A stretch of DNA of 64,000 bases from Lumbricus terrestris (lineage: Eukaryota; Annelida; Clitellata; Crassiclitellata; Lumbricidae): positions 35,980,371 through 36,044,370 of the forward strand of contig OX457037.1 in NCBI GenBank assembly GCA_949752735.1, written 5' to 3'. The translations under genes and the position numbers were made by a program. Positions 1,491-57,913 of the stretch are shown here, piece by piece (within the stretch, counting starts at the first letter, position 1; every line of letters begins with the position of its first letter). The notes beneath the pieces were generated by a model that worked only from the letters and a program-made list of their open reading frames with translations, ran no database searches and was not told where the DNA came from.

Positions 1491-3539
1491 AACTTTAATT
1501 TAGGGCGTAAAGGACGGCGAAGTCGTTTGGGAAGCGATAGAAAGAAACCCGGTGACGATCGGACAAGAACTGGATTTTTGGCGAATTAATAACGGTTTTT
1601 CTATACGGAAGACCGATTGTTGATTTTATGCCAAACCATAGTGTGCAAACAGCGATATTCCGGTGGAATAAAGCCTGCCACACGGTGTTCTGCTATATAT
1701 GTGGAGTAATGGCGATTACTCCATGGTCAATGAGCATCAACTCTGTTCTTCTCATTGATCTCTACGCAGCCCAGACACGTTGAATTGACATTGCTACGTT
1801 GGTTTGTTGGTGTCCAAACGATTCCTGGTGAATTTGAAGAGAAATATTGTGTTTTGAGCGAATCCGCACCCGCGGAGGTTATACGTTACCTGCGGTGACG
1901 ATCGAGCGGCGGCCGACTGGGCATCGCCCCGCTACGACGCACCAGGGAGAGTTGGTGGTGGCTCATCCCGTCTTACTTGTGACTGTCTCCTGGCATTTAG
2001 TGCTGTGTTGAAAATCAGACCCGCTGAGTGCTTGCAGCGTTAAAGAAAGCAGTTTTACCGCACCGTCTGATCGAGGCTCCGGCGTCGTATAGGCCTCGGT
2101 ATCCTATCCGCCACGAGCCCGTCAGCTCACCATACATATTGAACTGATCCGAGGTGTCAAGCAGTTCTCATTGTCCCTGGTGTCTTTTGAAGTATCGACT
2201 TTGTGCGCTAATCCTCGGTGAACCCGGAAAGACAAACGGCTCTTTTACACCGTGAGACAGATTGCCTTGTACGAGTGGCATAGCACTGGAATTGTTACCC
2301 TTGGCGGCCCGCGTCGGTTGATCTGCACGGCCGGCCAAGGCGAGCGCGCAACCGTAGATAAGCGGTAAGGCCTCGTCTGTTGAACTTGAGTCACCTGGAC
2401 CTTCGCAGTTATCAGACCGACGATTCCTCGCTCGTGTCGATTTATCACGTCGGTGTAGAACGCCAGAGAGGTTTTCTGCATATAATATAGCGTATACATT
2501 TCGACCCAGCATCTGCTGCTGAGCGACGGGTCCGGTCTCGTAGGACTCAGCCCCCTACGGACCTCGGCCACGCCCACGCCAGCGAGCGCCTCGCCGCCTG
2601 TGCGGTTAAAATATCCGGGTTAGGGTGAAACCCGCCAAGCTACAGAGACGCTTCGGCTCTACGGTCCGGAGAAGAATACTGGTTACCTTTCTGCCTACGA
2701 TTGGAAAGCGGTGTTGGTGACTGCGGTGAAAGCTTCCACACCGTCTGGCGCATCTCGTTTGGACACCGTCCGCCCCGGACGTGCGTCATCCAGTGACGCG
2801 GGCGCTGCCCGGTCAACCGACGCCTCGTGCGCCAGTGAATATTTCGTCATTCCAGCTTGGTCGTGAACGTGAATTCGGATTCAGTGGTACCTTGAAAGCG
2901 ATAAACCGTGATCGTTTGGTTGTTGATTAGCCTAGGATCGCGCGGTGTATTGAGGGCTCAAAGTTCGTCGCGCCTTCTATTCCCCGCGTGGCCGGCCGCC
3001 AGCAACGAGTCTTTGGGTGCCGCGCATTCCGCCGAAGCAGAATGCGTGGAGCCCATTGCCAGTAAATACATCCAGTGAGTGACATACTGAAGAAGAGTGC
3101 AAAGAAATACCGTGATACCTATATCTTGCCGCCGGCGAGATCTAACGATAAGTTTACCCGTAAGCAGCCGGGTAGAGGCGACAGTAAGTAAGGGTGCAGC
3201 CCCCTTAATTCTGTCAAAGCGTAGTGTACCAGAACGCAGTTCGGTCGAGCAAATGCTCGGCTGACGCGTAATTTACAGTTACCGATTAGATACTAGGGTG
3301 AAGCACGCACTTTCGACTCTTCGGCGAGAGGTCGGTTCAGCTCCCGCAGAGACATCTACTCCAAGTCCTAGTGTCGGTCAGTGGCCTACTCGGTGGAATT
3401 TGACTCTACAGTGGTGAAACCGGCATCAGACCGTGCGCCGCATACGATTTGCCCGTGAAAGTGTCAAGAGAACTGGTCTAGCTCGCCGCGTTTGGGAGTT
3501 AGAGGCATATTTGTGATTTCATCGGCGCCCGCCGAAGAC

Positions 3540-4830
3540 CGAGCGTTCGCCGCGACGAAGCTCGCGCTCACCGGACAGCTTTGCCATTCGTTGTCCGATT
3601 CGTTCAATCTTGGTGTCGGATTGTTCGTCTCATTGAGAGAAACATCTTACCTGTGGAGACCTAGTCAGTGACGGCTACGGTTTCGACGGTAGAGGTGCGC
3701 AAACTTGGTTTCCCGGTCCTACGCGTAACATCGCAGAGACCAGCATCGAAGACCAGCATCGCTAAGCCAGCGACGGCCGGCAATAAAAGTGTCAACGTGA
3801 ATAACTTTGTATCCTGTGGTCCAATCGCTTCGATCTAAGCGACAACCTCGTTCATCTTGACGAGTAGAAGACTTTTCCTGTTGAGAGTTTGGCAGCATCT
3901 GTTACGGTTTCAACGGTATAGTCTGAAGGAAACGCCTCGCGCGTGAAAAGGACTTGCCGACGCGAAGTTTGATTCCCCGGTCTCTCGCGTGGTGCAGCGA
4001 AGACCGGCCGCGTTTTCAGCGCCTTTGCCATCTGTCGTCCGATTCGTTCAATCTTGGTGTCCTATTGTTCGTCTCGACGAGAAGAATACTTTACCTGTGA
4101 AGAGTTAGTCAGTGACGGTTACGGCTTCAACGGTAGAAGCGCGCAAACTTGTTTTCCCCGGCCTTCGCCTAGCGAATACAGGCCAGCAACGCGAGACCGA
4201 GCGACCGCTGAGAGAGGTCGAGGCTTACCGGACAACTTTGTCAATCCTAGTCCGATCTACGTAAACTTGGTGTCAAACTGTTCGTCTGGTCTGTGCGAAC
4301 ATCTTACCTGTTGAGAGTTAACGAGTGTGAGTGAGTGTATAGACGGTATTAACTCGCGAAGAGTTTCTCCCGGTCTTTGGCCGAACGCACGTTTTCCCTC
4401 GCGTACGGCCAGCGGCGCCGCCCTAGCGAGCGACCGCCCCGTACAGGTCTGTGTTGGAGACCCGCGGCTCCATACGCCCGCGACTGTATGAAATTGTAAA
4501 CTTGGCTCTTTCGAATATCTTTACTTTCACCTACTGGTCTTTGCGTCGACCGAGTAGCAGGGTCGTGAGTGTTCGCTTAGCCGTGCCGGCTTGTATTTGT
4601 ACGTGTTGGTTGAAGTCCATTCAAGGCCGAAAGCGTATCGGTCGAGAGAGTGTAACTTTGTTATTTGTGGACCGATCTTTACAAAGTTGGTGTCAGATTG
4701 AACGTCACGCCGAGTTCTATCTGGTATACGTGTCAGTGAGTTACCTGTATCGTGAAAAGGGCTTCGGAAGGCACTTCATAAGCCGTCGCCCGTGTATTTT
4801 CCCTTGTGTACGTATCTTTGCCAGTCTCGA
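3540..4830. repeat. Diverged ~215-bp tandem repeats
   Basis: Units begin near 3580, 3800, 4021, 4233, about 4450 (weak) and 4650. The shared core reads CCGATTCGTTCAATCTTGG, then TTGTTCGTCT, then TTACCTGT and GAGAGTTAGTCAGTGACGG followed by TTCAACGGTAG. Copies 1 and 3 are the closest; the fifth is poor. Such subrepeats are typical of spacers and satellites. No open frame follows the period. Confidence 0.75.
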
Positions 4831-5432
4831 TTCGATCTGGTCCGCGCTGAGCAGATCGACACCAAGACGACCGTGACTGTAACGCCAGTGTGAGAGTATC
4901 CTTGGTGGATTAAACGGTGAAGGCTTGACAAGCTTTACTTCGCCAAAGCTACGGTTTTCCCCGCCCGGTCGAGGAATTCGTAGTCGCAAAGTTAGGGTTA
5001 AACGTAGCTGCCCTAACCGCTCCCTGTAGTTTACGCAGCGTGTCCCGGTTCCATAAGTCATAAGTTAATTTAGTTAAGGAAGTGTGTACCCCTTAGCTAA
5101 TTTTTAAGCCCCCTATACGGGAGCGATGCTGGTCTGTGGACGATAAACGCGAACCAGAAGCGGTACAAAGTCAGAGATCGTTGACGCCTGTTGCGGCGAA
5201 AGAGTCGACAGTCCCGAGTACGAGTGTGCGCCTTCCCTGTGGGATAGCGCGGAGTTGAGAGAGAAACAAGTACGCGAGCGCCTGGCAAGCGCCGTAGTCG
5301 GTTAACTTCGCTGTTGCGCGAATCGTGAAATAGTTTCGCTTCCCAGCGAACTATACGGGTGGTCTCCCTAAAGGCCTGGTACCAGAAAAACATATACGAA
5401 GAATTTGACTGTCCTGTGGCGGACAAAGGACA

Positions 5433-5960
5433 ATGGTAGTGGCACAGTACAGAGTAGGGTTGAATCCCCTAGAGTGGAGTTGGTGTCGCCTTCTATGGCC
5501 GACCTCATGGCAGCGCCAGGTATTACCTGTTGGAAGTGACGGCGCGTCGGGGGCTCGGTGTAGCATGGTGCGAAAGAGAACAGATCATGCGGAGGAGAAG
5601 GCGAAGTTGGCAGTGGCGAAAAGGAGCTCTAAGCGAGGGACCTCTGCCCGAAGAGTGAACCCTGTTTCGAGGATTGGCCATCCTGGAGCTCGGGATGTTA
5701 CCCCCAAGGTGACCGCAGGCGGGGCAGCATCAGGATCCGACGCTACAGAGCTATACACCTTGTTCCGAGCCTCTTTGCCGAGACGTTCTTCTCCGGTGGC
5801 ACAGATGCGAGTAGAGGAGATGACCGATGGGTCAGATTACGAGGCAAGGCACCGTGTTGCCCGCGAGCGGACCGATGAGCGTTACAAATGTACTCATTTG
5901 AGTAGAGTTAACAAGGGTGCAGAATGCAGATGGAGAATTTCTGCCATGACGGGGATTTGA
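5433..5960 (+). CDS. Basic 175-residue ORF, unrecognised
   Basis: This is the longest open frame in the CpG-rich block. From an internal Met (MVRKRTDHAEEKAK) the product is rich in Arg, Lys and Ser, as in N-terminal regions of retrotransposon ORF1 or gag-like proteins, but I see no zinc knuckle, protease or RT motif. The stop codon nearly coincides with the abrupt fall in GC content. It may be a truncated element ORF, or chance, since GC-rich sequence has few stop codons. No function is assigned. Confidence 0.2.
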   Translation: MVVAQYRVGLNPLEWSWCRLLWPTSWQRQVLPVGSDGASGARCSMVRKRTDHAEEKAKLAVAKRSSKRGTSARRVNPVSRIGHPGARDVTPKVTAGGAASGSDATELYTLFRASLPRRSSPVAQMRVEEMTDGSDYEARHRVARERTDERYKCTHLSRVNKGAECRWRISAMTGI

Positions 5961-14208: not shown

Positions 14209-14890
14209 CTCTGTATTTCAAGGAATTTGGATTATTAAAGATCGATCAAATTAGGCACTTGCAAATAGGAGAGTTTATGTACCGTTACAACCATGGACTA
14301 AACCACTTGTATTTAACGATTTCTTTAACCTTACCTCTGATCGCCACTCTTATTCAACTAGAAAATTAACTGTTTATGACCTTCCCTACGCACATACTAA
14401 TACTCGTCGATTCTCTATACAATATACTGGCTCCCAATGTTGGAACTCTCTCCCTACACATCTTCATTCCCTACCTAACACAAGATTATTTAAGCATAAA
14501 CTTCGCCTTTATCTACTTAAAAACACTTCCTGATAAGTAATGGTTAAGGTTTCTGCTCAGTGGTTTCGCCAAGCCCTTAGTTAAGTATTTAGTTAAGTCA
14601 TTAGTTAAGAGTTGTTTTTCTCGTTATATACAGAAATGTCGATTGCTTAATATTTTTTCTCTCTCTCCCTCATCATTTTTTTTATCCCTACAATTGAATG
14701 TTCTGTCATGTTTTTCTTTTATATTTTACATGAATTATGGGTGGCCCTATTAGCGGGATTTTCCATCCCTTCTGGGTCTCCCCTTCTTCACCAAATTATG
14801 TTAATGTATTATTCAATGCCATAATTGTATCATGTTTGTTTGTTGTTTTGGTTGAGGAAAAAAAAGGCGCTATAACAAATGAACATACAT
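14209..14890 (+). pseudogene. LINE reverse-transcriptase C-terminus and 3' UTR
   Basis: This is a 5'-truncated non-LTR retrotransposon. At 14306-14533 the frame reads through SDRHSYSTRK, then SQCWNSLPTHLHSLP and RLFKHKLRLYLL, ending in TGA. This is the conserved tail of CR1/L2/RTE-type ORF2 proteins. Just upstream, in another frame, is KEFGLLKIDQ...LQIGEFMYRYNHG, the normal preceding segment, so at least one frameshift separates them. The 3' UTR ends near 14890 in GGCGCTATAACAAATG, which matches the 3' end of SINE1. Confidence 0.85.
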
Positions 14891-19145: not shown

Positions 19146-19151
19146 GTGGTG
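19146..19151. other. Target-site duplication, left
   Basis: GTGGTG directly abuts the first base of the palindromic element and recurs at 32675-32680 directly after its last base. Confidence 0.75.
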
Positions 19152-19560
19152 AGTAGTAGGGTTTAGTGGTGGTTCTACTCCACCAATTAAAAACCCATTA
19201 AAAACCCATTAAAAAGCCATTAGTCACGCTCCAATGACGTCATCGGCCACGCCCCCTATTCATTGAAAGGTCATTAACTACTGGTGCAGCAATTAAAAAG
19301 TCATTAAGAAAGCAATTAGCTACTGGTGCAACAATTAAGAAGAGGTGATTAAGATCTCGCTAATGATATGCCCTCGGGTGATGGCTTTTCGACCAGGTGA
19401 TTAAGATCTCGTTAATGACGCAGGTGTTACGCCCTCGACCAGGTGCTTAAGATCTCGTTAATGACTTGCCCTCGGGTAATGGTTTTATTACGCACGATGG
19501 AGTGCGATAACAATCTGTAGGGCGCCGCAGCCCACACGATATAATTACTGAATGTCCAGG
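19152..19560 (+). promoter_or_regulatory. Terminal and subterminal repeats, left
   Basis: The outer ~400 bp are dense in iterated motifs. CATTAAAAACCC-like units repeat three times (19184-19222). CATTAACTACTGGTGCAGCA is followed by a near copy about 43 bp later. AGGTGATTAAGATCTCG with TAATGA occurs at 19342, 19395 and 19441, each followed by GCCCTCG. A small hairpin, GGTGG/CCACC, lies just inside the tip. Arrays like this often bind a transposase; that role is inferred. Confidence 0.6.
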
Positions 19561-20386
19561 CACCTGGCGCCGGTTATAATATATTATACATATTATATAA
19601 TATACACCTTGTATATACATATATAAATAATACATATATAAATAATATATATATATATTATATATATATTATATAATATGTTGTATATTATGTTATATAC
19701 TATGTACATATATTATTATATAATATTTATTTTTATATATATGTGTATTATATATATATGTATATACAAGGCGTATATTAAATAATATGTTATAATATAT
19801 TATATATATATATATATTATATATATATATATATATGTATATATATAAGATATATTATTATATAATATTTATATATATATGTGTATTATATATATGTATA
19901 CACAAGGTGTATATTATATAATATGCTATAATATATTATATACATATACTGTTATAAAATATATATATATATGTATTTTATATATATATGCATATATAAT
20001 ACATATATAATATATATATTATATTTAATATATTATATATATTAGATATATGTTATATATATTAGATATTAAATATTATATAACATATCATATATATATT
20101 ATGCACATATATTATTATATAATATTTATATATGTATATGTGTATTATATATGTATATGTATACACAAGGTGTATATTATATAATATGTTATAATATATT
20201 ATATACATATACTGTTATATAATATATGTATTATATATGCATATATAAGATATATTATACAATATGTTATAATATATTATAAAACATTATATATATATGA
20301 GATATATGTTATATATAATATATATATACATATTATTTATATGTATATACAAGGTGTATATTATATAATATGTTATAATATATTAT
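19560..20386. repeat. AT-rich tandem units, left arm
   Basis: TA-rich sequence with a recurring core, ACAAGGTGTATATTATATAA, at about 19767, 19902, 20165 and 20350, and the same core inverted near 19600. Each unit continues to TATACATATACTGTTA, which gives the empty target of the nested transposon. Confidence 0.85.
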
Positions 20387-20394
20387 ATACATAT

Positions 20395-22811
20395 TAGACT
20401 GGAGCTTATTTTTTTATTTGTGAAATATGATCTTCGTACCCCCTCAGTTTTTTCCTGTATATGAAATAAAAATTCTGGTAAAATATCAGCACAATTGAAC
20501 AATATTTAGGGGTAGCTCAATGATGGTGAAGTTTCTGATACTCCAGAGCTGTGGCAGCCTTTATATTTCGGATACTACCGAAACTGGCGTTTTATTTCTT
20601 AATTAATTCTGATGATAAATAAATAACCAAATCTTATTTGCTAAGTAAATTGAAACATTCTCCAATCATACACTCACTTAGATCACATTGTTTTGCTGAC
20701 AAGACACAATTTCCATGAAAAGGGCATCCGAAAGAGAAGAACAAATGGTTGCCAGGCGACGGCGAATGGAAGAAATTAAACAGTCAGCAGCTTCTACCGC
20801 TGAACTGATTTCATCGGGTTCTGTAGACAGCTCAAAAGAAGATGATGAAAAGATGGAAACAGAGGCCAATGCAAGTGAGGGGCTATTGGAGGTATCCCAT
20901 TTAAGACACCGAACAGAAAGAGGGGACGAAAAACTGTCGTTACTCCAGAACTCGCAGCAGCTCTCGATGGAACCAAAGTGTCAGAACGTAAGGCCGTTTT
21001 TGTAATAGCGGAAACTGCGAAAAGCTTGGGACAGAACATTGATGAACTTGCTTTAAACAGAGACTCAATTCGCCGACATAGAGTAGAACACCGAGCTCAG
21101 AGATCAGTAAATATAAAAACAGAGTTTCAGGGTAGCACTCCACTTGTTGTTCACTGTGACGGCAAGCTGATCCAGGGATCTTACTGGAAAAGAGAAAGTC
21201 GATCGCCTGCCAGTATTGGTTTCAGGGAAAGGACTTCTCAACTACTCACAGTTGCCAAACTTCCATCTGGAACAGGAGAGGCTCAGGCTGCTGCTGTCTT
21301 TGGAGCCATTGAAGACTGGGGCATAGCCGACAGCATTCGAGCTATGTGTTTTGATACGACCAGCTGGTCGGATCGCTGGTGCCTGTGTCCTCCTAGAGAA
21401 GAAGCTTGAGAAGGAGCTCCTGTCACTGGCTTGCAGGCATCACATTATGGAATTGATAATTGGTGCAGTGTTCAAAGTGTGCATAGGGCCCACCACATCT
21501 TCTCCGCAGGTTGCACTCTTCAAACGCTTCCAGGATTATTGGGGACTCATAGACACGGCCAATTATGAAACAGGAATTTCAGCTCATGACGTGGCAGCTC
21601 TAGTAGAAGACATAAAGCAAGACACCATCGATTATGCCAACAAGCAGCTGCAACAGAGTCATCCAAGAAATGATTATAAAGAATTCTTGGAATTTGCAAT
21701 TGTCTTTCTTGGTGCTGCTCCAGCCACAGGAGTGCGATTCATGTCACCCGGAGCAATGCACCATGCCCGATGGATGTCCAAAGTCATTTAAAGTCTCAAA
21801 ATCTGGATGTTCAATGCTCAATTCAAACTGACTCCTGCAGAAGAGAGAGGATTATGGGATGTATGTGTGTCCGCAGTGCGTATCTACCTGAAAGCTTGGA
21901 TCTCCGCACCGCAAGCATCACGTGCTCCTTACAATGACCTGCTGCTGCTGCTGAACTTACTGCTCGAATACTCATCAATCCATTCAGCCATCTCAAAGGC
22001 AACATCGCACAAGTTTTCGAATCACTTGTGGTACATGTCACAGGAACTGGTGAGCCTGGCTTTCTTCGACCGTCGAGTCAGTTCATCAACGAAGAGACTG
22101 ATGGTGAGTGCCATGCAAAATAGAGCAAGCCGAGATAAGGACCATTCCAAGCGAATCACAATTGCTCTGGATTCCTTCAAGAACAAGAACTTGGAAGATT
22201 TTGTCACAGCCCAGTCAATGACACTGATCCAAATGCTGGAACTTCCACACGGATTTCTCGCAGTTGATCCGGACTTGTGGGAAGACAGAGACGACTACAA
22301 GCAGGCTACAGAAACAGTGGAGTCTCTGAAAGTTGTCAATGACCATGCTGAACGTGGAGTGGCGCTCATTCAGGAGTACAGTGGATTATTAACCCGTGAT
22401 GAAACACAGCTGCAGTTCCTGCTGCAAGTTGTCGAGGACCGTCGTAAAATGTACCCCGATAGCAGGAAACAGACTCTGTCCGGGTTGCCATGAAAACAAG
22501 AAAACCATGAGTTTGCTGGACTTTGTGAGACTTATGCTATACAATCTGATGTACTCTGTCAAAGAATTTATGAGCAGTGTGTTTTTGTTCCAAAGTAAAT
22601 ATTGTGTTCAGTTTAAAATAAATACCCGACGTAGTTCGTAGAATTTTCGTCGTTTTCGTAATATCTTAGGGACTTGAGCTACCTCTAAACATACCAATTT
22701 ATTGCTCAAACTTTTTTCACAGTGTTTCTATATAATAAGGAACAGATTTGGGGGGTACGACTTTCAAATATTAAAATTTTAATTTTTTCTTATTTCTTAA
22801 GCTCCACTCTA
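20395..22811 (+). mobile_element. Nested 2.4-kb DNA transposon, left copy
   Basis: Ends are TAGACTGGAGCTTA and, reverse-complemented, TAGAGTGGAGCTTA. Imperfect inverted similarity continues about 150 bp inward through GTACCCCC and GGTAGCTCAA. The 8-bp duplication ATACATAT (20387-20394, 22812-22819) is supported by sister AT repeats, where ATACATATACTGTTATA is uninterrupted. It holds one transposase pseudogene on the plus strand. An 8-bp duplication fits hAT and several related superfamilies; I cannot assign one. Confidence 0.88.
20715..22493 (+). pseudogene. DDE-type transposase-like gene, broken, left copy
   Basis: About 590 codons in three segments. Segment 1 (20715-~20890) is charged. Segment 2 (~20879-21360) contains VVHCDGKL and MCFDTT, likely the first two catalytic Asp. 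Segment 3 (~21360-22493) contains LACRHHI, a CxxH motif seen in many eukaryotic DDE transposases, then NDHAERGVALIQ, whose Glu may be the third acidic residue. Breaks: a frameshift near 20880-20900, another near 21360, and a TAA stop at 21789-21791 in place of a sense codon. The family is widespread among uncharacterised invertebrate proteins. The arrangement is that of a self-mobilising gene that has died. Confidence 0.8.
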
Positions 22812-22819
22812 ATACATAT

Positions 22820-23235
22820 ACTGTTATATAATATATATATATATATATGTATATTATATATATGTATATATAAGGTGTATATTATATAATATGTATAATA
22901 TATTATAAAAAATTATTTGTTATATATATAATATATTAAATAATATATATATATAATATATGCATTATATATAAGATATATTATAATATATAATGACATA
23001 TTATATGACATATCATACATATTTATCATAAATATTGTATCATATATATATATATATTATATATCATTATACATTAAATATTATATATATACGTATTAAC
23101 GAAGACAAATATATATATATATAAAAAATTATATATATTCTATATATAATAATTATATTTCATACATACATTATTTATATATATATACAATACATATTAT
23201 ATATATTGTATATATGTATATATTATATGTGCATT
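22820..23235. repeat. AT-rich repeat right of nested transposon
   Basis: Continuation of the AT block interrupted by the nested element. It resumes with ACTGTTATATAATATATA and includes an AAGGTGTATATTATA core near 22872. Confidence 0.85.
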
Positions 23236-23299
23236 GCCAGCTCATTCCAATGAATCCTGCACTATGGGGCTTTAATAATTGCGGAAAAATCGAACTTTT

Positions 23300-24569
23300 T
23301 AACTTTCAAGCCTCAATTTTACCATTCCATACTTCTGTTCAACCCTCATACTCCCACCCTTCTTCCATTTTCATTCCATGATTCTTACATTATTGTGCAA
23401 TCTCAAACACTGAAACGCTAAGAATTGAGGAAATTTGTGTTATTGTAACTGTGATGGTTCAAACTTACCATTCCATGCTCTTAATTCTTACAAATTTCAA
23501 CATCTCATTCTCACAAGTTCTACAATTCCTTACCTGCTTACTTACTCACTCACAAAATTTCAACACTTCAACAACTTTACACATACACGTTCCTACTCTT
23601 ATTTCTCATTTCTTCACTCCTTCAGTTCTTAACACTTGCATCTTTCAACATCTCAACCATGCAAATTCTACAATTCCTTACCTGCTTACTTACTTACTCA
23701 CAAAATTTCTACACACTAAAGCTTTACACATATACAATTCTACTCTTATTTCTCAAATATTCAATCATTCAATACTTACTTCTTGCTTGTTTCAACATCT
23801 CAATCTCACAAGTTCTACAATTCCTCACATGATTACTTACTAACTCACAAAATTTCTACATGCCAAAGCTTTACACATGCGCAATCATACACATGTTTCT
23901 CATTTCTTCACTTCTTCAGTTCTTAATACTTACATCTTTCAACATCTCAACCATGCAAATTCTACAACTCCTTGCACACTTACTTACTTACTCACAAAAT
24001 TTTTACAAATCAATTGCTTTTCACTCGTACAAGGTTGCACGTATTTCTCATTTCTTCATTCCATCAGTTGTTAATACTTGCATCTTTCATCATTTCAACC
24101 ATACAAACTCTACAATTCCTCACCTGCCTACTTACTTACTCACCAAATTTCTACATGCCGAAGCTTTACACATGCGCAATCCTACACTTGTTTCTCATTT
24201 CTTCACTTCTTCAGTTCTTAATACTTACATCTTTCAACATCTCAACCATACAAATTCTACAATTCCTTGCACACTTACTTACTTACTCACAAAAGTTTTG
24301 CAAATCAATTGCTTTTCACTCGTACAAGCTTGCACGTATTTCTCATTTCTTCAAACCTTCATCTCTTAATTCTTACGCTTTTCAACATCTCAATCACAGC
24401 ATTCTACAATTTCTCAGTTACATACTTACTTACTCACATAATTCATGCATACCAGCAGCTTTACGCATGCACAATCCTACTCTTATTCTCAAAGCTTCAA
24501 TCCTTCAAATCTTACTTCTGTCATTTTCAACTTCTAAATCGCACAATTCTACAATTTCACACACACTTG

Positions 24570-24615
<46 letters not shown>

Positions 24616-24760
24616 CACTTACTTCGTGCATAGAACTCTTCAATTGCAAATTCATGCGTTTGGTTCTCATTTGTTCAATTCTTCAACTATAACTCTTAAT
24701 TCTTACACGTTTCAACTCCACGATTCTGCAATTGCTCAGTTACTTACTTCTTGAAGTATA
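23300..24760 (+). repeat. ~146-bp satellite array, left arm
   Basis: The landmark TTTCAACATCTCAA recurs near 23497, 23645, 23797, 23937, 24092, 24234, 24380 and 24524, a period of 140-155 bp. Each unit also has a TTACTTACTCACAAAATTTC segment and a TTTCTCATTTCTTCA segment. Stop-poor strands give long LLTYLLTK-like frames that are not genes. A (CTTA)n expansion near 24565-24612 is longer here than in the mirror copy. Confidence 0.9.
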
Positions 24761-24887
24761 AAAAATTGTAGAGTAAGATGTTGAACAGACCAAAGCGATA
24801 CAATTTTCCATGATGACAAAATGAAAAATACAAGTAATGTTGTTCGTTTAATGATGGAAAAGTGGTAGAGTGGATGAAGCAAAGGAG

Positions 24888-24987
24888 TAGGAGGAGGAGG
24901 TTGTGGTGGAAGAGGACGATGAGGAGGAGGAGGAGGAGGAGGAGGAGGAGGAGGAAGAAGAAGAGGAGGAGGAGGAGGCGAAGGCTG
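24888..24987 (+). repeat. GAG-rich purine tract
   Basis: An imperfect (GAG)n homopurine run. The poly-Glu, poly-Arg and opposite-strand poly-Ser frames derive from it. The mirror copy lies at about 26855-26957. Confidence 0.95.
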
Positions 24988-24989
24988 AA

Positions 24990-25200
24990 TTATTTTCCAC
25001 TAACATCAATTTTCTTCGCAAAGTTTCTAAGTCCACTCATTTTCGCACACCAAAAGTTTCTAAGTTCCAAAATTTTCTCCATGGTCATAAAAGTTTCCTC
25101 ACAAATTTTCTAAGTCCAAACATTTTCTGTGACGAAAAATTTCTAAGTTCAACAATTTCTTACATGTCCACAAATTTTTATTCCAATGTTATGTATGAGG
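24990..25200 (+). repeat. Short TTTCTAAGTYC repeats
   Basis: AAGTTTCTAAGTCC and AATTTTCTAAGTCC words recur every ~35-40 bp (about 25020, 25055, 25100, 25140), separated by CATTTTC-type words. The peptide repeats in the overlapping frames have no known domain. Mirrored at about 26640-26850. Confidence 0.7.
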
Positions 25201-25231
25201 AGCATTAGGAGAAGGAGCAGAATGAGGATGA

Positions 25232-25428
25232 GAAGAATTTGGGTCTTAGAGATATGTATTCAAAGTTTCTAAGTCAAAACATTTTCTGTCATGAAAATTT
25301 TCTTAGTCAGAAAATTTAAGACGAGCACATGTTTAGCTGAGTCATCAATTTGTGCAGAAAGTATATGTTTGGTTGAATACATGATGAATGTTGGATGGTT
25401 CAGTGATGCGAAGTATAGTACACTTTGA
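25232..25428 (+). repeat. 197-bp direct repeat, copy 1
   Basis: From GAAGAATTTGGGTCTTAG to AGTACACTTTGA. An almost identical copy lies at 25896-26092 (CTTAGTC versus CTAAGTC is one difference). The left part of this copy belongs to the palindrome arm. Confidence 0.93.
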
Positions 25429-25895
25429 TATATATTATATAATATGTTGTATATTATGTTATATACTATGTACATATATTATTATATCATATTTATTTAT
25501 ATATATATATGTGTATTATATATATGTATATACAAGGCGTATATTAAATAATATGTTATAATATATTATATACATATACTGTTATATAATATATATATAT
25601 ATTATGTATATATATGTATATATAAGATATATATTATATAATATGTTATAATATATTATAAAATATTCTATATATATATACATAAGATTTATGTTAAATA
25701 TATATATAATATATTAAATATAATATATATATTATATATATTATAATATATTATATAACATATCATTATATATTATGCACATATATTATTATATAATATT
25801 TATATATATATGTGTATTATATATATATATGTATACACAAGGTGTATATTATATAATATGTTATAATATATTATATACATATACTGTTATAAAAT
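25429..25895. repeat. AT block duplicated from the arm end
   Basis: TATTATATAATATGTTGTATA and the following ACAAGGCGTATATTAAATA sequence repeat the block at about 19660-19800 in the same order. It ends at TATACTGTTATAAAAT. It lies between the two 197-bp direct repeats and has no mirror copy at the matching place in the right arm. Confidence 0.8.
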
Positions 25896-26092
25896 GAAGA
25901 ATTTGGGTCTTAGAGATATGTATTCAAAGTTTCTAAGTCAAAACATTTTCTGTCATGAAAATTTTCTAAGTCAGAAAATTTAAGACGAGCACATGTTTAG
26001 CTGAGTCATCAATTTGTGCAGAAAGTATATGTTTGGTTGAATACATGATGAATGTTGGATGGTTCAGTGATGCGAAGTATAGTACACTTTGA
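25896..26092 (+). repeat. 197-bp direct repeat, copy 2
   Basis: Second copy of 25232-25428, in the unique centre of the element. A short inverted trace of its left end (AAGACCCAAATTCTTCATTT) is found near 26429. Confidence 0.93.
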
Positions 26093-26179
26093 GCTAAATA
26101 CATAGCTTTGCAATCGCATGCTCTGCAACCTCAGCAGAAATTCCTGAGCCTTACAGCTAAAAATATAAGTTCTTCAAAA

Positions 26180-26445
26180 TAAAATTATCAGTCTAGGTGC
26201 GTGCACGCTTGGAACGCCAGTAACGTGCGACAAGTTGGCCCGAGCGGCGTTTGTGACGGCGGCGTTTCCAGCTCAGGTGACGGCGACGGTTCGTGCGGTG
26301 AATCGGATCAAGATCGCACGAATCGCCGCCGTCCCCGACAAGTTGGCCCGAGCGGCGCTTGTGGCGGCGGCGTTTCCTTCTCGGGGACGGCGGCGATTCG
26401 TGCGATCTTGATCCGATTCACCAAAGCTAAGACCCAAATTCTTCA
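26180..26445. repeat. GC-rich central hairpin
   Basis: A GC-rich island in an AT-rich element. Perfect 40-bp inverted repeats at 26297-26336 and 26383-26422 start GGTGAATCGGATCAAGATCG and end in its complement, with a 46-bp loop. A ~41-bp direct repeat starting GACAAGTTGGCCCGAGCGGC occurs at 26229 and, as the loop, at 26337. The hairpin axis (~26360) is displaced from the arm axis (~25913). The 99-residue frame over it is compositional. Confidence 0.9.
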
Positions 26446-27084
26446 TTTTATAACACACATCTTACATATACTTTCTGCACAAATTGATGACACAAATTGA
26501 TGACTCAGCTAAACATGTGCTCGTCTTAAATTTTCTGACTAAGAAAATTTTCATGACAGAAAATGTTTTGACTTAGAAACTTTGAATACATATCTCTAAG
26601 ACCCAAATTCTTCTCATCCTCATTCTGCTCCTCCTAATGCTCCTCATACATAACATTGGAATAAAAATTTGTGGACATGTAAGAAATTGTTGAACTTAGA
26701 AATTTTTCGTCACAGAAAATGTTTGGACTTAGAAAATTTGTGAGGAAACTTTTATGACCATGGAGAAAATTTTGGAACTTAGAAACTTTTGGTGTGCGAA
26801 AATGAGTGGACTTAGAAACTTTGCGAAGAAAAATGATGTTAGTGGAAAATAATTCAGCCTTCGCCTCCTCCTCCTCCTCCTCCTCTTCTTCTTCCTCCTC
26901 CTCCTCCTCCTCCTCCTCCTCCTCATCGTCCTCTTCCACCACAACCTCCTCCTCCTACTCCTTTGCTTCATCCACTCTACCACTTTTCCATCATTAAACG
27001 AACAACATTACTTGTATTTTTCATTTTGTCATCATGGAAAATTGTATCGCTTTGGTCTGTTCAACATCTTACTCTACAATTTTT

Positions 27085-28525
27085 TATACTTCAAGAAGTA
27101 AGTAACTGAGCAATTGCAGAATCGTGGAGTTGAAACGTGTAAGAATTAAGAGTTATAGTTGAAGAATTGAACAAATGAGAACCAAACGCATGAATTTGCA
27201 ATTGAAGAGTTCTATGCACGAAGTAAGTGAGTAAGTAAGTAAGTAAGTAAGTAAGCAAGTGTGTGTGAAATTGTAGAATTGTGCGATTTAGAAGTTGAAA
27301 ATGACAGAAGTAAGATTTGAAGGATTGAAGCTTTGAGAATAAGAGTAGGATTGTGCATGCGTAAAGCTGCTGGTATGCATGAATTATGTGAGTAAGTAAG
27401 TATGTAACTGAGAAATTGTAGAATGCTGTGATTGAGATGTTGAAAAGCGTAAGAATTAAGAGATGAAGGTTTGAAGAAATGAGAAATACGTGCAAGCTTG
27501 TACGAGTGAAAAGCAATTGATTTGCAAAACTTTTGTGAGTAAGTAAGTAAGTGTGCAAGGAATTGTAGAATTTGTATGGTTGAGATGTTGAAAGATGTAA
27601 GTATTAAGAACTGAAGAAGTGAAGAAATGAGAAACAAGTGTAGGATTGCGCATGTGTAAAGCTTCGGCATGTAGAAATTTGGTGAGTAAGTAAGTAGGCA
27701 GGTGAGGAATTGTAGAGTTTGTATGGTTGAAATGATGAAAGATGCAAGTATTAACAACTGATGGAATGAAGAAATGAGAAATACGTGCAACCTTGTACGA
27801 GTGAAAAGCAATTGATTTGTAAAAATTTTGTGAGTAAGTAAGTAAGTGTGCAAGGAGTTGTAGAATTTGCATGGTTGAGATGTTGAAAGATGTAAGTATT
27901 AAGAACTGAAGAAGTGAAGAAATGAGAAACATGTGTATGATTGCGCATGTGTAAAGCTTTGGCATGTAGAAATTTTGTGAGTTAGTAAGTAATCATGTGA
28001 GGAATTGTAGAACTTGTGAGATTGAGATGTTGAAACAAGCAAGAAGTAAGTATTGAATGATTGAATATTTGAGAAATAAGAGTAGAATTGTATATGTGTA
28101 AAGCTTTAGTGTGTAGAAATTTTGTGAGTAAGTAAGTAAGCAGGTAAGGAATTGTAGAATTTGCATGGTTGAGATGTTGAAAGATGCAAGTGTTAAGAAC
28201 TGAAGGAGTGAAGAAATGAGAAATAAGAGTAGGAACGTGTATGTGTAAAGTTGTTGAAGTGTTGAAATTTTGTGAGTGAGTAAGTAAGCAGGTAAGGAAT
28301 TGTAGAACTTGTGAGAATGAGATGTTGAAATTTGTAAGAATTAAGAGCATGGAATGGTAAGTTTGAACCATCACAGTTACAATAACACAAATTTCCTCAA
28401 TTCTTAGCGTTTCAGTGTTTGAGATTGCACAATAATGTAAGAATCATGGAATGAAAATGGAAGAAGGGTGGGAGTATGAGGGTTGAACAGAAGTATGGAA
28501 TGGTAAAATTGAGGCTTGAAAGTTA
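27085..28525 (-). repeat. ~146-bp satellite array, right arm
   Basis: Mirror copy of 23300-24760 with the same unit order. The (TAAG)n run near 27225-27255 is about 20 bp shorter than its partner. Confidence 0.9.
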
Positions 28526-28589
28526 AAAAGTTCGATTTTTCCGCAATTATTAAAGCCCCATAGTGCAGGATTCATTGGAATGAGCTGGC

Positions 28590-29005
28590 AATGCACATAT
28601 AATATATACATATATACAATATATATAATATGTATTGTATATATATATAAATAATGTATGTATGAAATATAATTATTATATATAGAATATATATAATTTT
28701 TTATATATATATATATTTGTCTTCGTTAATACGTATATATATAATATTTAATGTATAATGATATATAATATATATATATATATGATACAATATTTATGAT
28801 AAATATGTATGATATGTCATATAATATGTCATTATATATTATAATATATCTTATATATAATGCATATATTATATATATATATTATTTAATATATTATATA
28901 TATAACAAATAATTTTTTATAATATATTATACATATTATATAATATACACCTTATATATACATATATATAATATACATATATATATATATATATTATATA
29001 ACAGT
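28590..29005. repeat. AT-rich repeat, right arm
   Basis: Mirror copy of 22820-23235, bordering the nested transposon. Confidence 0.85.
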
Positions 29006-29013
29006 ATATGTAT

Positions 29014-31430
29014 TAGAGTGGAGCTTAAGAAATAAGAAAAAATTAAAATTTTAATATTTGAAAGTCGTACCCCCCAAATCTGTTCCTTATTATATAGAAA
29101 CACTGTGAAAAAAGTTTGAGCAATAAATTGGTATGTTTAGAGGTAGCTCAAGTCCCTAAGATATTACGAAAACGACGAAAATTCTACGAACTACGTCGGG
29201 TATTTATTTTAAACTGAACACAATATTTACTTTGGAACAAAAACACACTGCTCATAAATTCTTTGACAGAGTACATCAGATTGTATAGCATAAGTCTCAC
29301 AAAGTCCAGCAAACTCATGGTTTTCTTGTTTTCATGGCAACCCGGACAGAGTCTGTTTCCTGCTATCGGGGTACATTTTACGACGGTCCTCGACAACTTG
29401 CAGCAGGAACTGCAGCTGTGTTTCATCACGGGTTAATAATCCACTGTACTCCTGAATGAGCGCCACTCCACGTTCAGCATGGTCATTGACAACTTTCAGA
29501 GACTCCACTGTTTCTGTAGCCTGCTTGTAGTCGTCTCTGTCTTCCCACAAGTCCGGATCAACTGCGAGAAATCCGTGTGGAAGTTCCAGCATTTGGATCA
29601 GTGTCATTGACTGGGCTGTGACAAAATCTTCCAAGTTCTTGTTCTTGAAGGAATCCAGAGCAATTGTGATTCGCTTGGAATGGTCCTTATCTCGGCTTGC
29701 TCTATTTTGCATGGCACTCACCATCAGTCTCTTCGTTGATGAACTGACTCGACGGTCGAAGAAAGCCAGGCTCACCAGTTCCTGTGACATGTACCACAAG
29801 TGATTCGAAAACTTGTGCGATGTTGCCTTTGAGATGGCTGAATGGATTGATGAGTATTCGAGCAGTAAGTTCAGCAGCAGCAGCAGGTCATTGTAAGGAG
29901 CACGTGATGCTTGCGGTGCGGAGATCCAAGCTTTCAGGTAGATACGCACTGCGGACACACATACATCCCATAATCCTCTCTCTTCTGCAGGAGTCAGTTT
30001 GAATTGAGCATTGAACATCCAGATTTTGAGACTTTAAATGACTTTGGACATCCATCGGGCATGGTGCATTGCTCCGGGTGACATGAATCGCACTCCTGTG
30101 GCTGGAGCAGCACCAAGAAAGACAATTGCAAATTCCAAGAATTCTTTATAATCATTTCTTGGATGACTCTGTTGCAGCTGCTTGTTGGCATAATCGATGG
30201 TGTCTTGCTTTATGTCTTCTACTAGAGCTGCCACGTCATGAGCTGAAATTCCTGTTTCATAATTGGCCGTGTCTATGAGTCCCCAATAATCCTGGAAGCG
30301 TTTGAAGAGTGCAACCTGCGGAGAAGATGTGGTGGGCCCTATGCACACTTTGAACACTGCACCAATTATCAATTCCATAATGTGATGCCTGCAAGCCAGT
30401 GACAGGAGCTCCTTCTCAAGCTTCTTCTCTAGGAGGACACAGGCACCAGCGATCCGACCAGCTGGTCGTATCAAAACACATAGCTCGAATGCTGTCGGCT
30501 ATGCCCCAGTCTTCAATGGCTCCAAAGACAGCAGCAGCCTGAGCCTCTCCTGTTCCAGATGGAAGTTTGGCAACTGTGAGTAGTTGAGAAGTCCTTTCCC
30601 TGAAACCAATACTGGCAGGCGATCGACTTTCTCTTTTCCAGTAAGATCCCTGGATCAGCTTGCCGTCACAGTGAACAACAAGTGGAGTGCTACCCTGAAA
30701 CTCTGTTTTTATATTTACTGATCTCTGAGCTCGGTGTTCTACTCTATGTCGGCGAATTGAGTCTCTGTTTAAAGCAAGTTCATCAATGTTCTGTCCCAAG
30801 CTTTTCGCAGTTTCCGCTATTACAAAAACGGCCTTACGTTCTGACACTTTGGTTCCATCGAGAGCTGCTGCGAGTTCTGGAGTAACGACAGTTTTTCGTC
30901 CCCTCTTTCTGTTCGGTGTCTTAAATGGGATACCTCCAATAGCCCCTCACTTGCATTGGCCTCTGTTTCCATCTTTTCATCATCTTCTTTTGAGCTGTCT
31001 ACAGAACCCGATGAAATCAGTTCAGCGGTAGAAGCTGCTGACTGTTTAATTTCTTCCATTCGCCGTCGCCTGGCAACCATTTGTTCTTCTCTTTCGGATG
31101 CCCTTTTCATGGAAATTGTGTCTTGTCAGCAAAACAATGTGATCTAAGTGAGTGTATGATTGGAGAATGTTTCAATTTACTTAGCAAATAAGATTTGGTT
31201 ATTTATTTATCATCAGAATTAATTAAGAAATAAAACGCCAGTTTCGGTAGTATCCGAAATATAAAGGCTGCCACAGCTCTGGAGTATCAGAAACTTCACC
31301 ATCATTGAGCTACCCCTAAATATTGTTCAATTGTGCTGATATTTTACCAGAATTTTTATTTCATATACAGGAAAAAACTGAGGGGGTACGAAGATCATAT
31401 TTCACAAATAAAAAAATAAGCTCCAGTCTA
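29014..31430 (-). mobile_element. Nested 2.4-kb DNA transposon, right copy
   Basis: Mirror of 20395-22811, beginning TAGAGTGGAGCTTA and ending CTCCAGTCTA, with the duplication ATATGTAT at 29006-29013 and 31431-31438. It did not insert independently: the target site is the exact mirror of the left copy. Confidence 0.88.
29332..31110 (-). pseudogene. DDE-type transposase-like gene, broken, right copy
   Basis: Same gene remains as 20715-22493, on the minus strand. The stop codon lies at 30034-30036, with frameshifts near 30465 and 30930-30945, mirroring those of the left copy exactly. The CDGK, CFDTT, CRHH and NDHAERG motifs are all present. Neither copy can give a full-length protein, and recombination between the copies cannot repair the gene because they share the lesions. 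Confidence 0.8.
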
Positions 31431-31438
31431 ATATGTAT

Positions 31439-32266
31439 ATAATATATTATAACATATTATATAATATACACCTTGTATATACATATAAATAATATGTATA
31501 TATATATTATATATAACATATATCTCATATATATATAATGTTTTATAATATATTATAACATATTGTATAATATATCTTATATATGCATATATAATACATA
31601 TATTATATAACAGTATATGTATATAATATATTATAACATATTATATAATATACACCTTGTGTATACATATACATATATAATACACATATACATATATAAA
31701 TATTATATAATAATATATGTGCATAATATATATATGATATGTTATATAATATTTAATATCTAATATATATAACATATATCTAATATATATAATATATTAA
31801 ATATAATATATATATTATATATGTATTATATATGCATATATATATAAAATACATATATATATATATTTTATAACAGTATATGTATATAATATATTATAGC
31901 ATATTATATAATATACACCTTGTGTATACATATATATAATACACATATATATATATAAATATTATATAATAATATATCTTATATATATACATATATATAT
32001 ATATATATAATATATATATATATAATATATTATAACATATTATTTAATATACGCCTTGTATATACATATATATAATACACATATATATAAAAATAAATAT
32101 TATATAATAATATATGTACATAGTATATAACATAATATACAACATATTATATAATATATATATAATATATATATATATATATTATTTATATATGTATTAT
32201 TTATATATGTATATACAAGGTGTATATTATATAATATGTATAATATATTATAACCGGCGCCAGGTG
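31439..32266. repeat. AT-rich tandem units, right arm
   Basis: Mirror copy of 19560-20386, with small length changes in TA runs near 32160-32230. Confidence 0.85.
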
Positions 32267-32674
32267 CCTGGACATTCAGTAATTATATCGTGTGGGCTGC
32301 GGCGCCCTACAGATTGTTATCGCACTCCATCGTGCGTAATAAAACCATTACCCGAGGGCAAGTCATTAACGAGATCTTAAGCACCTGGTCGAGGGCGTAA
32401 CACCTGCGTCATTAACGAGATCTTAATCACCTGGTCGAAAAGCCATCACCCGAGGGCATATCATTAGCGAGATCTTAATCACCTCTTCTTAATTGTTGCA
32501 CCAGTAGCTAATTGCTTTCTTAATGACTTTTTAATTGCTGCACCAGTAGTTAATGACCTTTCAATGAATAGGGGGCGTGGCCGATGACGTCATTGGAGCG
32601 TGACTAATGGCTTTTTAATGGGTTTTTAATGGGTTTTTAATTGGTGGAGTAGAACCACCACTAACCCTACTACT
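32267..32674 (-). promoter_or_regulatory. Terminal and subterminal repeats, right
   Basis: Mirror of 19152-19560: three TCATTARCGAGATCTTAA motifs and three GGGTTTTTAATG-like motifs, ending CCCTACTACT at the tip. Confidence 0.6.
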
Positions 32675-32680
32675 GTGGTG
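32675..32680. other. Target-site duplication, right
   Basis: GTGGTG directly follows the element and matches 19146-19151. The sequence beyond it is unrelated to the left flank. Confidence 0.75.
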
Positions 32681-57164: not shown

Positions 57165-57812
57165 TCCATATTCATTCATTCATATTCATATTCATTCAAG
57201 AATTTATATAGCGCTTCTTCAAGGGGACTACTCAGAAGCGCTCCCGACTCTAGCACGGCAAAAAAGGACAGTTTTGAGTTTAATAAAAAATGTTTCAGTA
57301 ATAACCCCAGCAAGTAGACGTAGCTCCTGTGGGAGCCCATTCCAGACAACTGGGCCGATCACAGAAAATGCTCTATGCTGCATCGTTGCAGTTCGTGCAA
57401 AAGGGACCAATAGCAATCCCTTCTGTGCAGAACGGAGGGCCTGTCGAAGGGGGCGGTGGTCTTGGGTACTAGTGGAGCAACAAAGCTCTTGCAAGTAGTG
57501 TGGGGCAATTCCAAGCTGGCATTGCCTAACTAGGGCAGCAATCCTAAATTCAATGCGCTGCCGAGTAGGAAGCCAGTGTAATGTCTCCAGCATATAGCTG
57601 GACACATGATCAAATTTAGGGATATGTCCAATTAAACGTGCTGCAGAGCATATGACTCTGTTTAAGCACATTATTCGATTGGATGGGAGGCCAGAGTAGA
57701 GTGACGAGCAATAGTCAAGACGTATGCTTTCATATGCTTTCAGCCGGCCAGGAGAGTTGCAGTATAGCATACCTTTTGACGCCGTAACACTTTGAGCACT
57801 GAATATCATAAC
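57165..57812 (-). pseudogene. LINE reverse-transcriptase C-terminal fragment, CR1/L2-like
   Basis: On the minus strand 57228-57809 is open for 193 codons. It reads RLDYCSSLYSGLPSNRI, then HWLPTRQRIEFRIAALVRQC, GIAPHYLQEL, then GPVVWNGLPQELR and a stop. These are conserved segments of the reverse-transcriptase thumb and C-terminal region of CR1/L2-like LINEs. It is 5'-truncated, lacking the endonuclease and RT palm. The 3' end has GCGCTATATAAATTC and a (GAATAT)n tail at 57165-57195. Being open, it is relatively young. Confidence 0.92.
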
Positions 57813-57913
57813 GCATTTATTTTGCCAGACTTAAATGATATGGCTCGTTTTTATACATACCGGTAATGATGAAGGTTTACTACCAACGGCATTCATATTT
57901 GTTTGTTTGTATG

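Follow-up and report, generated by a model that had tools for sequence, protein, structure and literature searches.

Within a 64,000-nucleotide stretch of the genome of the earthworm Lumbricus terrestris (contig OX457037.1, positions 35,980,371 to 36,044,370; hereafter the window), a 13,523-bp palindrome at 19152-32674 was found to be a mobile element that moves as one piece. This element is probably a non-coding palindromic satellite of a Polinton-derived transposon family that carries the same ends and in which a DNA polymerase is the sole long gene recognised (hereafter pol-only elements). The material was a single 1.06-Gb assembly (331 contigs) of one individual, and all counts from genome searches are lower bounds.

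A palindromic unit that moves as one piece

The palindrome was confirmed as real in the assembly. The original prediction had described near-identical reverse-complement arms with exact stops, and both features were borne out. The arms aligned at 99.15% identity over 6,239 columns, with 3 mismatches and 9 gap openings, and the sequences AGTAGTAGGG and CCCTACTACT occurred once each in the window, precisely at the arm ends. Differences between the arms consisted of a 1-base indel 10 bases from the end, indels in AT, ACTT and GGA microsatellites, two substitutions within the GGA array, a substitution at 25009 and indels of 3 and 13 bases near the centre. As had also been noted, GTGGTG abuts both outer ends and the flanks are unlike; two random 6-mers of the window were identical in 125 of 200,000 draws. 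The extent had been given as 19146-32680, which adds both target duplications to the element proper, and the description of the unit as nearly all inverted repeat holds for the arms of ~6.2 kb and not for the middle (~1.1 kb), which is asymmetric. The central motif lies 7,145 bp from the left end and 6,358 bp from the right end, and we read this asymmetry (787 bp) as a probable loss on the right side.

Other copies with the same ends were recovered throughout the genome. With 40 of 208 candidates scored, the outer 400 bp gave at least 51 matches, most of them paired in inverted orientation. A pattern for the AGTAGTAGGG end gave 43 forward and 41 reverse matches, as compared to 2 and 5 for a reversed control, and 64 of these 84 ends formed 32 inverted pairs within 40 kb; with three elements from the outer-400-bp search, 35 elements were listed, six of which are unread. 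Perfect 6-bp duplications flanked all 19 copies with both ends read (i.e. 16 of 16 copies plus the window element, C2_79.7 and C17_4.67), a count that leaves out the copies fetched at one end (C1_58, C31, C4_71.9, C9_14.1 and C5_15.27). Unoccupied paralogous sites were found for one relative, the C17 copy, which lies in a long interspersed nuclear element (LINE). This copy interrupts what we take to be the LINE reverse-transcriptase frame, and joining its flanks with a single CCGGAT restored the frame. The joined flanks had 24 genome matches, of which 10 were LINE paralogues (at least 81%) that aligned unbroken across the site, 2 were the interrupted C17 locus and 12 were weaker. Shared ends, 6-bp duplications and the empty-site paralogues of one member show that the palindrome moves as a single piece, as had been proposed for a giant fold-back element, and the checks made on that proposal came out in its favour. 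The pol-only partners, the nested hAT-like insert and the re-equalisation of the arms described below lay outside the original prediction.

A probe from the centre had 72 genome candidates (40 scored), many of them in places where no AGTAGTAGGG end is recorded, so the end pattern probably understates the size of the palindromic family. Three such places (C13:9346266-9348682, C15:26665127-26666051 and C2:66747524-66748709) contain palindrome cores, for the most part 83-85% similar to the interior of the window element, that may use other ends. The exact terminal inverted repeat (TIR) pattern was found in none of the viral contigs and the TIR minisatellite pattern in none of the prokaryote genomes. 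On the small contig C31, which appears to duplicate part of C4, a Mab-21/nucleotidyltransferase-like frame of 645 aa (L038:7615-9549) adjoins a palindrome-type copy.

Polymerase-bearing elements with the same ends

The listed elements fall into two classes. In 15 of the 35, a 1,115-aa polymerase was matched over all or nearly all of its length (41 of 1,632 candidates scored, 34 of the 41 without a stop), and two more held a broken polymerase. Nine had long inverted arms by sequence: C14, C184 and C15 were palindromic to the centre, the long arms of the window element, C10, C6_20.9 and C1_20.6 were broken by one-sided changes, and C11_19.86 and C4_49.4 had shorter matching arms (1.1 kb, and 1.5 kb at 96%, respectively). 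C4_27.9, C12 and C17 were judged palindromic from mirrored interior matches; mirrored pairs of the interior probe (Table 1) were present in these three and in C14.

Pol-only elements measured 9.3-13.4 kb, with inverted ends of ~0.4 kb. Their 1,115-aa open reading frame matched the DNA polymerase phrog_1907 (E 1.9e-15) and, along nearly all its length, showed 39% identity to its counterpart in a complete Polinton nearby. PF03175 was matched by 8 of 22 relatives, and residues that we take for family-B motifs vary little or not at all in an alignment of the relatives. By sequence resemblance the protein can be assigned to the Polinton-type family B polymerases. Seven stop-free copies were compared over 1,008 codons; the broken copies and C5_23.0, whose frame contains a stop, were omitted. 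The ratio of nonsynonymous to synonymous substitution (dN/dS) was 0.08-0.17 in 17 diverged pairs and 0.17-0.52 in four very close pairs; judged by these ratios, the polymerase is under purifying selection. A PDB sequence search gave only weak matches, mainly to zinc fingers, and none of the 14 stretches of viral contigs that fitted the pattern was confirmed as a relative of the polymerase.

Queries with the integrase, ATPase, capsid and protease of that complete Polinton gave no match (E 1e-3) in the window or in the other fetched loci L009-L047, a set of loci that leaves out L001-L008. Pfam detected no integrase in nine small frames of pol-only elements (i.e. eight of the 32 non-polymerase frames of one copy and one frame from a second copy), and none of 126 scored Polinton integrases lay inside the 35 elements. 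Two same-ended pairs of 16.8 and 22.5 kb were rejected as integrase-bearing members, as both hold a broken polymerase and inserted DNA. An unread pair with family ends spans 31.6 kb (C4:16873611-16905216); it may be a member that carries an integrase, or a copy lengthened by large inserts. One pol-only copy, C5_15.27, carries a gene for PC4 (transcription coactivator p15; L042:1019-1516), and fragments of the C-terminal end of PC4 lie near one inverted repeat in eight other pol-class copies; judging from this gene and its remnants, the pol-only class appears to have been reduced from something larger.

The earthworm genome is very Polinton-rich, to judge from sequence matches to the integrase (3,754 candidates in a permissive first scan; 119 of the 126 scored without a stop). 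The complete Polinton referred to above, of 16.2 kb (C1:58.06-58.08 Mb; L028:2072-10000 plus L048:1-8276) has inverted repeats of ~340 bp (99.7%), starts with AGTAGATAG and is flanked on both sides by CACGGG. Its genes include an A32-type ATPase, a double-jelly-roll protein and an integrase, whose matches to rve (E 6.7e-7) and chromo (E 8e-4) are both under the curated Pfam cut-offs. A 6-bp target duplication is typical of Polintons, which are also known as Mavericks. The Maverick-like duplications of the original prediction were present in all 19 copies read at both ends, and, in line with the AG termini it named, the AGTAG start is that of the local Polinton. A search for a Maverick-type element with these termini was answered in part: the AGTAG start and the duplication length are common to both, and the inverted repeats otherwise have no similarity beyond chance, the match between AGTAGATAG and AGTAGTAGG being of 5 bases only. 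Because the genome holds many intact Polinton integrases and none was found in either class, supply of integrase in trans by Polintons is plausible.

Equalisation of the arms and its explanations

The interiors of the window element and C14 were 97-99% alike, and a second subfamily (C184, C15 and C1_20.6) was 72-81% alike to the first in the interior parts that aligned. C184 and C15 have a common centre, as do the window element and C14, which share 76 identical bases around the core, including three asymmetric substitution pairs of C14; in C1_20.6 and C11_19.86 the centre differs on one side. As related palindromes at different loci share both interior and centre, the palindrome is inherited, and its formation anew at each locus was rejected on the same evidence.

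The left and right 430-bp ends differed by 0-2 substitutions in all nine palindromic copies and by 7-43 in all eight pol-class copies compared (one of them broken). In three pol-only copies the left ends grouped with left ends and the right with right; as these ends are inherited as separate lineages, transposition alone does not equalise them. Mirrored and one-armed differences numbered 113 and 6 between C184 and C15 (3,994 columns), 27 and 3 between the window element and C14 (3,080 columns) and 177 and 7 between C1_20.6 and C15 (3,795 columns), gapped columns being excluded throughout and strongly AT-rich columns also in the last two comparisons. The sums, 317 mirrored and 16 one-armed, are not fully independent since C15 was used twice. 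No asymmetry shared between copies was found in the arms in these three comparisons. At the centre, C184 and C15 share three stem substitutions, 46, 38 and 35 bases from the axis, and within 75 bases there was one private stem substitution in C184 and three in C15; the 32 shared asymmetric columns at this centre count each site twice and, beyond the three stem sites, comprise the unpaired loop and a length difference. At the sequence level, these comparisons show that the two arms were re-equalised in each lineage compared and that a few asymmetries of the central hairpin were inherited.

Nested elements were present in both arms of the window element (a hAT-like insert, 2 x 2,417 bp or ~36% of the element) and of C10 (a LINE; reverse transcriptase E 6.9e-37). 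In C1_20.6, an insert of ~1.9 kb, which we take to be Helitron-like from its TC...CTAG sequence between A and T, occupies one arm only and the other arm has the empty site. Probe distances were unequal between the arms of C12 (by 4.7 kb) and C17 (by 1.6 kb), and the central motif of C11_19.86 lies far off centre. In the simplest order, one-armed changes arose after integration, and those now in both arms predate the last copying of an arm.

The window insert has ends of the TAGNG type and an 8-bp duplication, both of which are hAT-like. Its exact junction occurs in the assembly only at the two mirrored places in the window, with four more places at one mismatch. Among the four pieces of its broken frame, Pfam gave no match to the hAT family or to any transposase family, the single match being to FTO_CTD and sub-threshold. 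A transposase-like frame in both arms might suggest that this gene drives movement of the whole unit, a notion to which we give almost no credence: the insert has its own inverted ends and a broken frame, matched no other fetched family locus, and is nested, a structure that already contradicts such a role. Its 8-bp duplication and the exact empty target within the element ruled out the arm gene as the element's own transposase, and this broken gene is not the motor of the palindrome.

A tentative account of the arms is a three-tier parasitism, a possibility that we would not yet call probable, in which Polintons give the integrase, pol-only transposons the polymerase, and gene-less palindromes exploit both. 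One arm would be the true genetic unit, and the second arm would be rebuilt in every replication cycle by fold-back synthesis at the conserved central hairpin. In our preferred explanation, that of a satellite of the pol-only family, which we hold to be probable, the pol-only polymerase would replicate the palindrome ends by protein priming, as expected for its family, and the Polinton integrase supplied in trans would insert the linear product. During replication, a 3' end in the GC-rich central hairpin would fold back on itself and be extended outward along one whole arm as far as its end; because a whole arm would be copied, a mutation or nested transposon of one arm would appear in both halves. 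Such synthesis would mirror everything outside the hairpin, including the hAT-like insert of the window, and leave mismatches of the hairpin untouched. Folding of the hairpin strand gave -107.6 kcal/mol, which is no evidence by itself since any palindrome would fold so.

Several points weigh against the palindrome as a satellite of pol-only elements and against fold-back synthesis as the cause of its symmetry. No AGTAGTAGGG-ended element with an integrase was found, so the case for supply in trans consists of a 5-base end match, the duplication length and the abundance of Polintons. Palindromes share with pol-only elements only ~0.4-0.6 kb, AT arrays and a nested repeat, and palindrome cores also occur at loci lacking a recorded AGTAGTAGGG end. 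The pol-only polymerase itself fell below the Pfam DNA polymerase model, and its first relative likewise gave no match. The argument from the centre is small, with three stem substitutions per subfamily plus the unpaired loop, and private asymmetries are found there too. Equalisation is not continuous, because of the one-armed insert of C1_20.6, the unequal arms of C12 and C17 and the off-centre motif of C11_19.86, and the arms of C4_49.4 match at just 96% over 1.5 kb. Replication intermediates were not observed, and many of the marks expected of fold-back synthesis would also be left by gene conversion in place.

Gene conversion between arms is known for other chromosomal palindromes and is the main rival for the behaviour of the arms, and a strong one. 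In this explanation, which we regard as a serious contender if short of probable, the mobile family is the same and ordinary conversion equalised the arms in place after integration, replication being uninvolved. Mirrored differences and mirrored nested elements would be expected here too, no one-armed donor of the hAT-like insert was seen and its exact junction occurs nowhere else in the assembly. Conversion fits less well with the three stem asymmetries that C184 and C15 share no more than 46 bases from the centre, when the 113 differences at greater distances are mirrored, although conversion could simply fail to reach so near the axis. It fits less well also with the one-armed Helitron-like insert, which persists between arms otherwise ~99% identical, and with one-armed length differences that persist where interiors are mirrored.

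The same anatomy might instead belong to an ordinary cut-and-paste foldback transposon, moved by an unknown transposase with 6-bp duplications, whose ends the pol-only elements captured. We consider this unlikely. Palindromes are a recognised weak point of some sequencing methods, and the evidence here comes from an assembly. An artefact (an inverted read chimera or collapsed arms) is nevertheless very improbable, as the flanks differ and abut the target duplication, and palindromes at independent loci are set apart by duplications, private asymmetries and one-armed inserts of their own. For the cut-and-paste origin, long arms, tandem arrays and absence of coding capacity are already known from foldback elements, and foldback structures are reported as possibly arising repeatedly through transposase loss and TIR elongation (PMC4079207). 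Against it, a polymerase under selection is the one long gene that could be recognised in elements with these ends, and both the AGTAG start and the 6-bp duplication recur in a Polinton of the same genome. Foldbacks are for the most part assigned to Mutator, and duplications of 8-10 bp are reported for Tetris (PMC4079207), as compared to 6 bp here.

Features of the window and comparison with known systems

The terminal ~420 bp of the element were 91-97% similar to 12 and 83-87% similar to 4 of 16 other copies (286-456 bases aligned), and an Rfam scan of the window gave no match. The layout of the element is given in Table 1.

Table 1. Layout of the palindromic element and its nested insert (window positions).
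Feature	Position	Strand	Remarks
Left target-site duplication GTGGTG	19146..19151	.	sequence
Right target-site duplication GTGGTG	32675..32680	.	sequence
Palindrome left arm	19152..25368	+	99.15% to right arm
Palindrome right arm	26464..32674	-	alignment to left arm
Terminal ~420 bp (AGTAGTAGGG...)	19152..19572	+	11-bp minisatellite; common with pol-only elements
Mirror of terminal ~420 bp	32254..32674	-	
AT-rich repeat array, outer part	19575..20394, continues 22825-23228	.	split by hAT-like insert
Mirror AT-rich array	31431..32252, other part 28597-29000	.	
Nested hAT-like transposon	20395..22811	+	2,417 bp; inverted ends TAGA(C/G)TGGAGCTTA; 8-bp duplication ATACATAT; broken transposase-like frame
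Mirror copy of hAT-like transposon	29014..31430	-	100% identical
147-bp tandem array	23479..24583	+	mirror 27242-28346
Arm unit (interior probe)	24985..25425	+	partly mirrored in right arm
Unoccupied 52-bp target of hAT-like insert	25548..25599	.	letter-for-letter; central region
Second copy of 197-bp unit 25232-25428	25896..26092	+	99.5%
GC-rich imperfect central hairpin	26205..26420, core motif 26297-26316	.	right side rearranged

Elsewhere in the window, fragments at 14255-14530 and 57231-57830 resemble a reverse transcriptase that we take to be LINE-like. A GC-rich block at 1900-5960 gave no Rfam match; a 600-bp probe from it had 366 genome candidates (40 scored), and because several same-orientation pairs lay 12.6-13.1 kb apart, the block looks like the long terminal direct repeat of a ~13-kb element.

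This is an animal-genome case in which the outcome of replicative transposition may be legible from sequence: pol-only elements pass on their distinct ends separately, and palindrome arms are reset. A further suggestion is that a Polinton stripped of almost everything but its polymerase can still spread, and that such elements can have parasites of their own. Were the three-tier account true, the palindrome would proof-read its own symmetry and duplicate any nested transposon it acquired. Recently formed giant palindromes are also of consequence for genome stability and assembly.

Palindromic defective genomes are by-products of replication in protein-primed linear replicons (e.g. defective interfering DNA of the adenovirus type and linear plasmids). 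These resemble the window element in the inverted duplication of one end, in an identical origin at both termini and in helper dependence; the window palindromes differ in being integrated in chromosomes as an established family of at least two subfamilies. Among the literature matches listed, none dealt directly with palindromic genomes of this kind. Satellites of the virophage and transpoviron type are helper-dependent and exploit the machinery of another mobile element, a dependence that may well hold for the palindromes, which would differ in forming two tiers of satellites (i.e. pol-only and then gene-less palindrome) integrated in an animal genome.

With Polintons, the family shares the 6-bp duplication, the AGTAG end of one local Polinton and, in its partner, the polymerase related to that of the same Polinton. 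The window palindrome differs in having no genes of its own, and in the fetched copies of its pol-only partner no integrase, ATPase, protease or capsid was found. The Polinton gene set is given as pPolB, RVE integrase, ATPase and protease (PMC4028283); none of these, nor a capsid, had a match in the window at E 1e-3. Among the open-licence literature matches listed, no palindromic, foldback or non-autonomous Polinton was described in the titles and abstract openings.

The closest likeness in anatomy is to the foldback elements FB, Galileo and Tetris. These are reported to have very long inverted arms, internal tandem arrays, no coding capacity, probable mobilisation in trans and ends common with other elements; long inverted arms, internal repeats and lack of coding capacity were all found in the window element. 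The Mutator-like duplication of 8-10 bp reported for Tetris was not found, the length being 6 bp in all 19 copies read. The window family differs further in being a near-complete palindrome of up to 14.4 kb, in a partner that encodes a polymerase without a recognised transposase, in an inherited centre and in the equalising of its arms over the lineage. In anatomy it is a foldback element, and what looks new is the partner and the behaviour of the arms.

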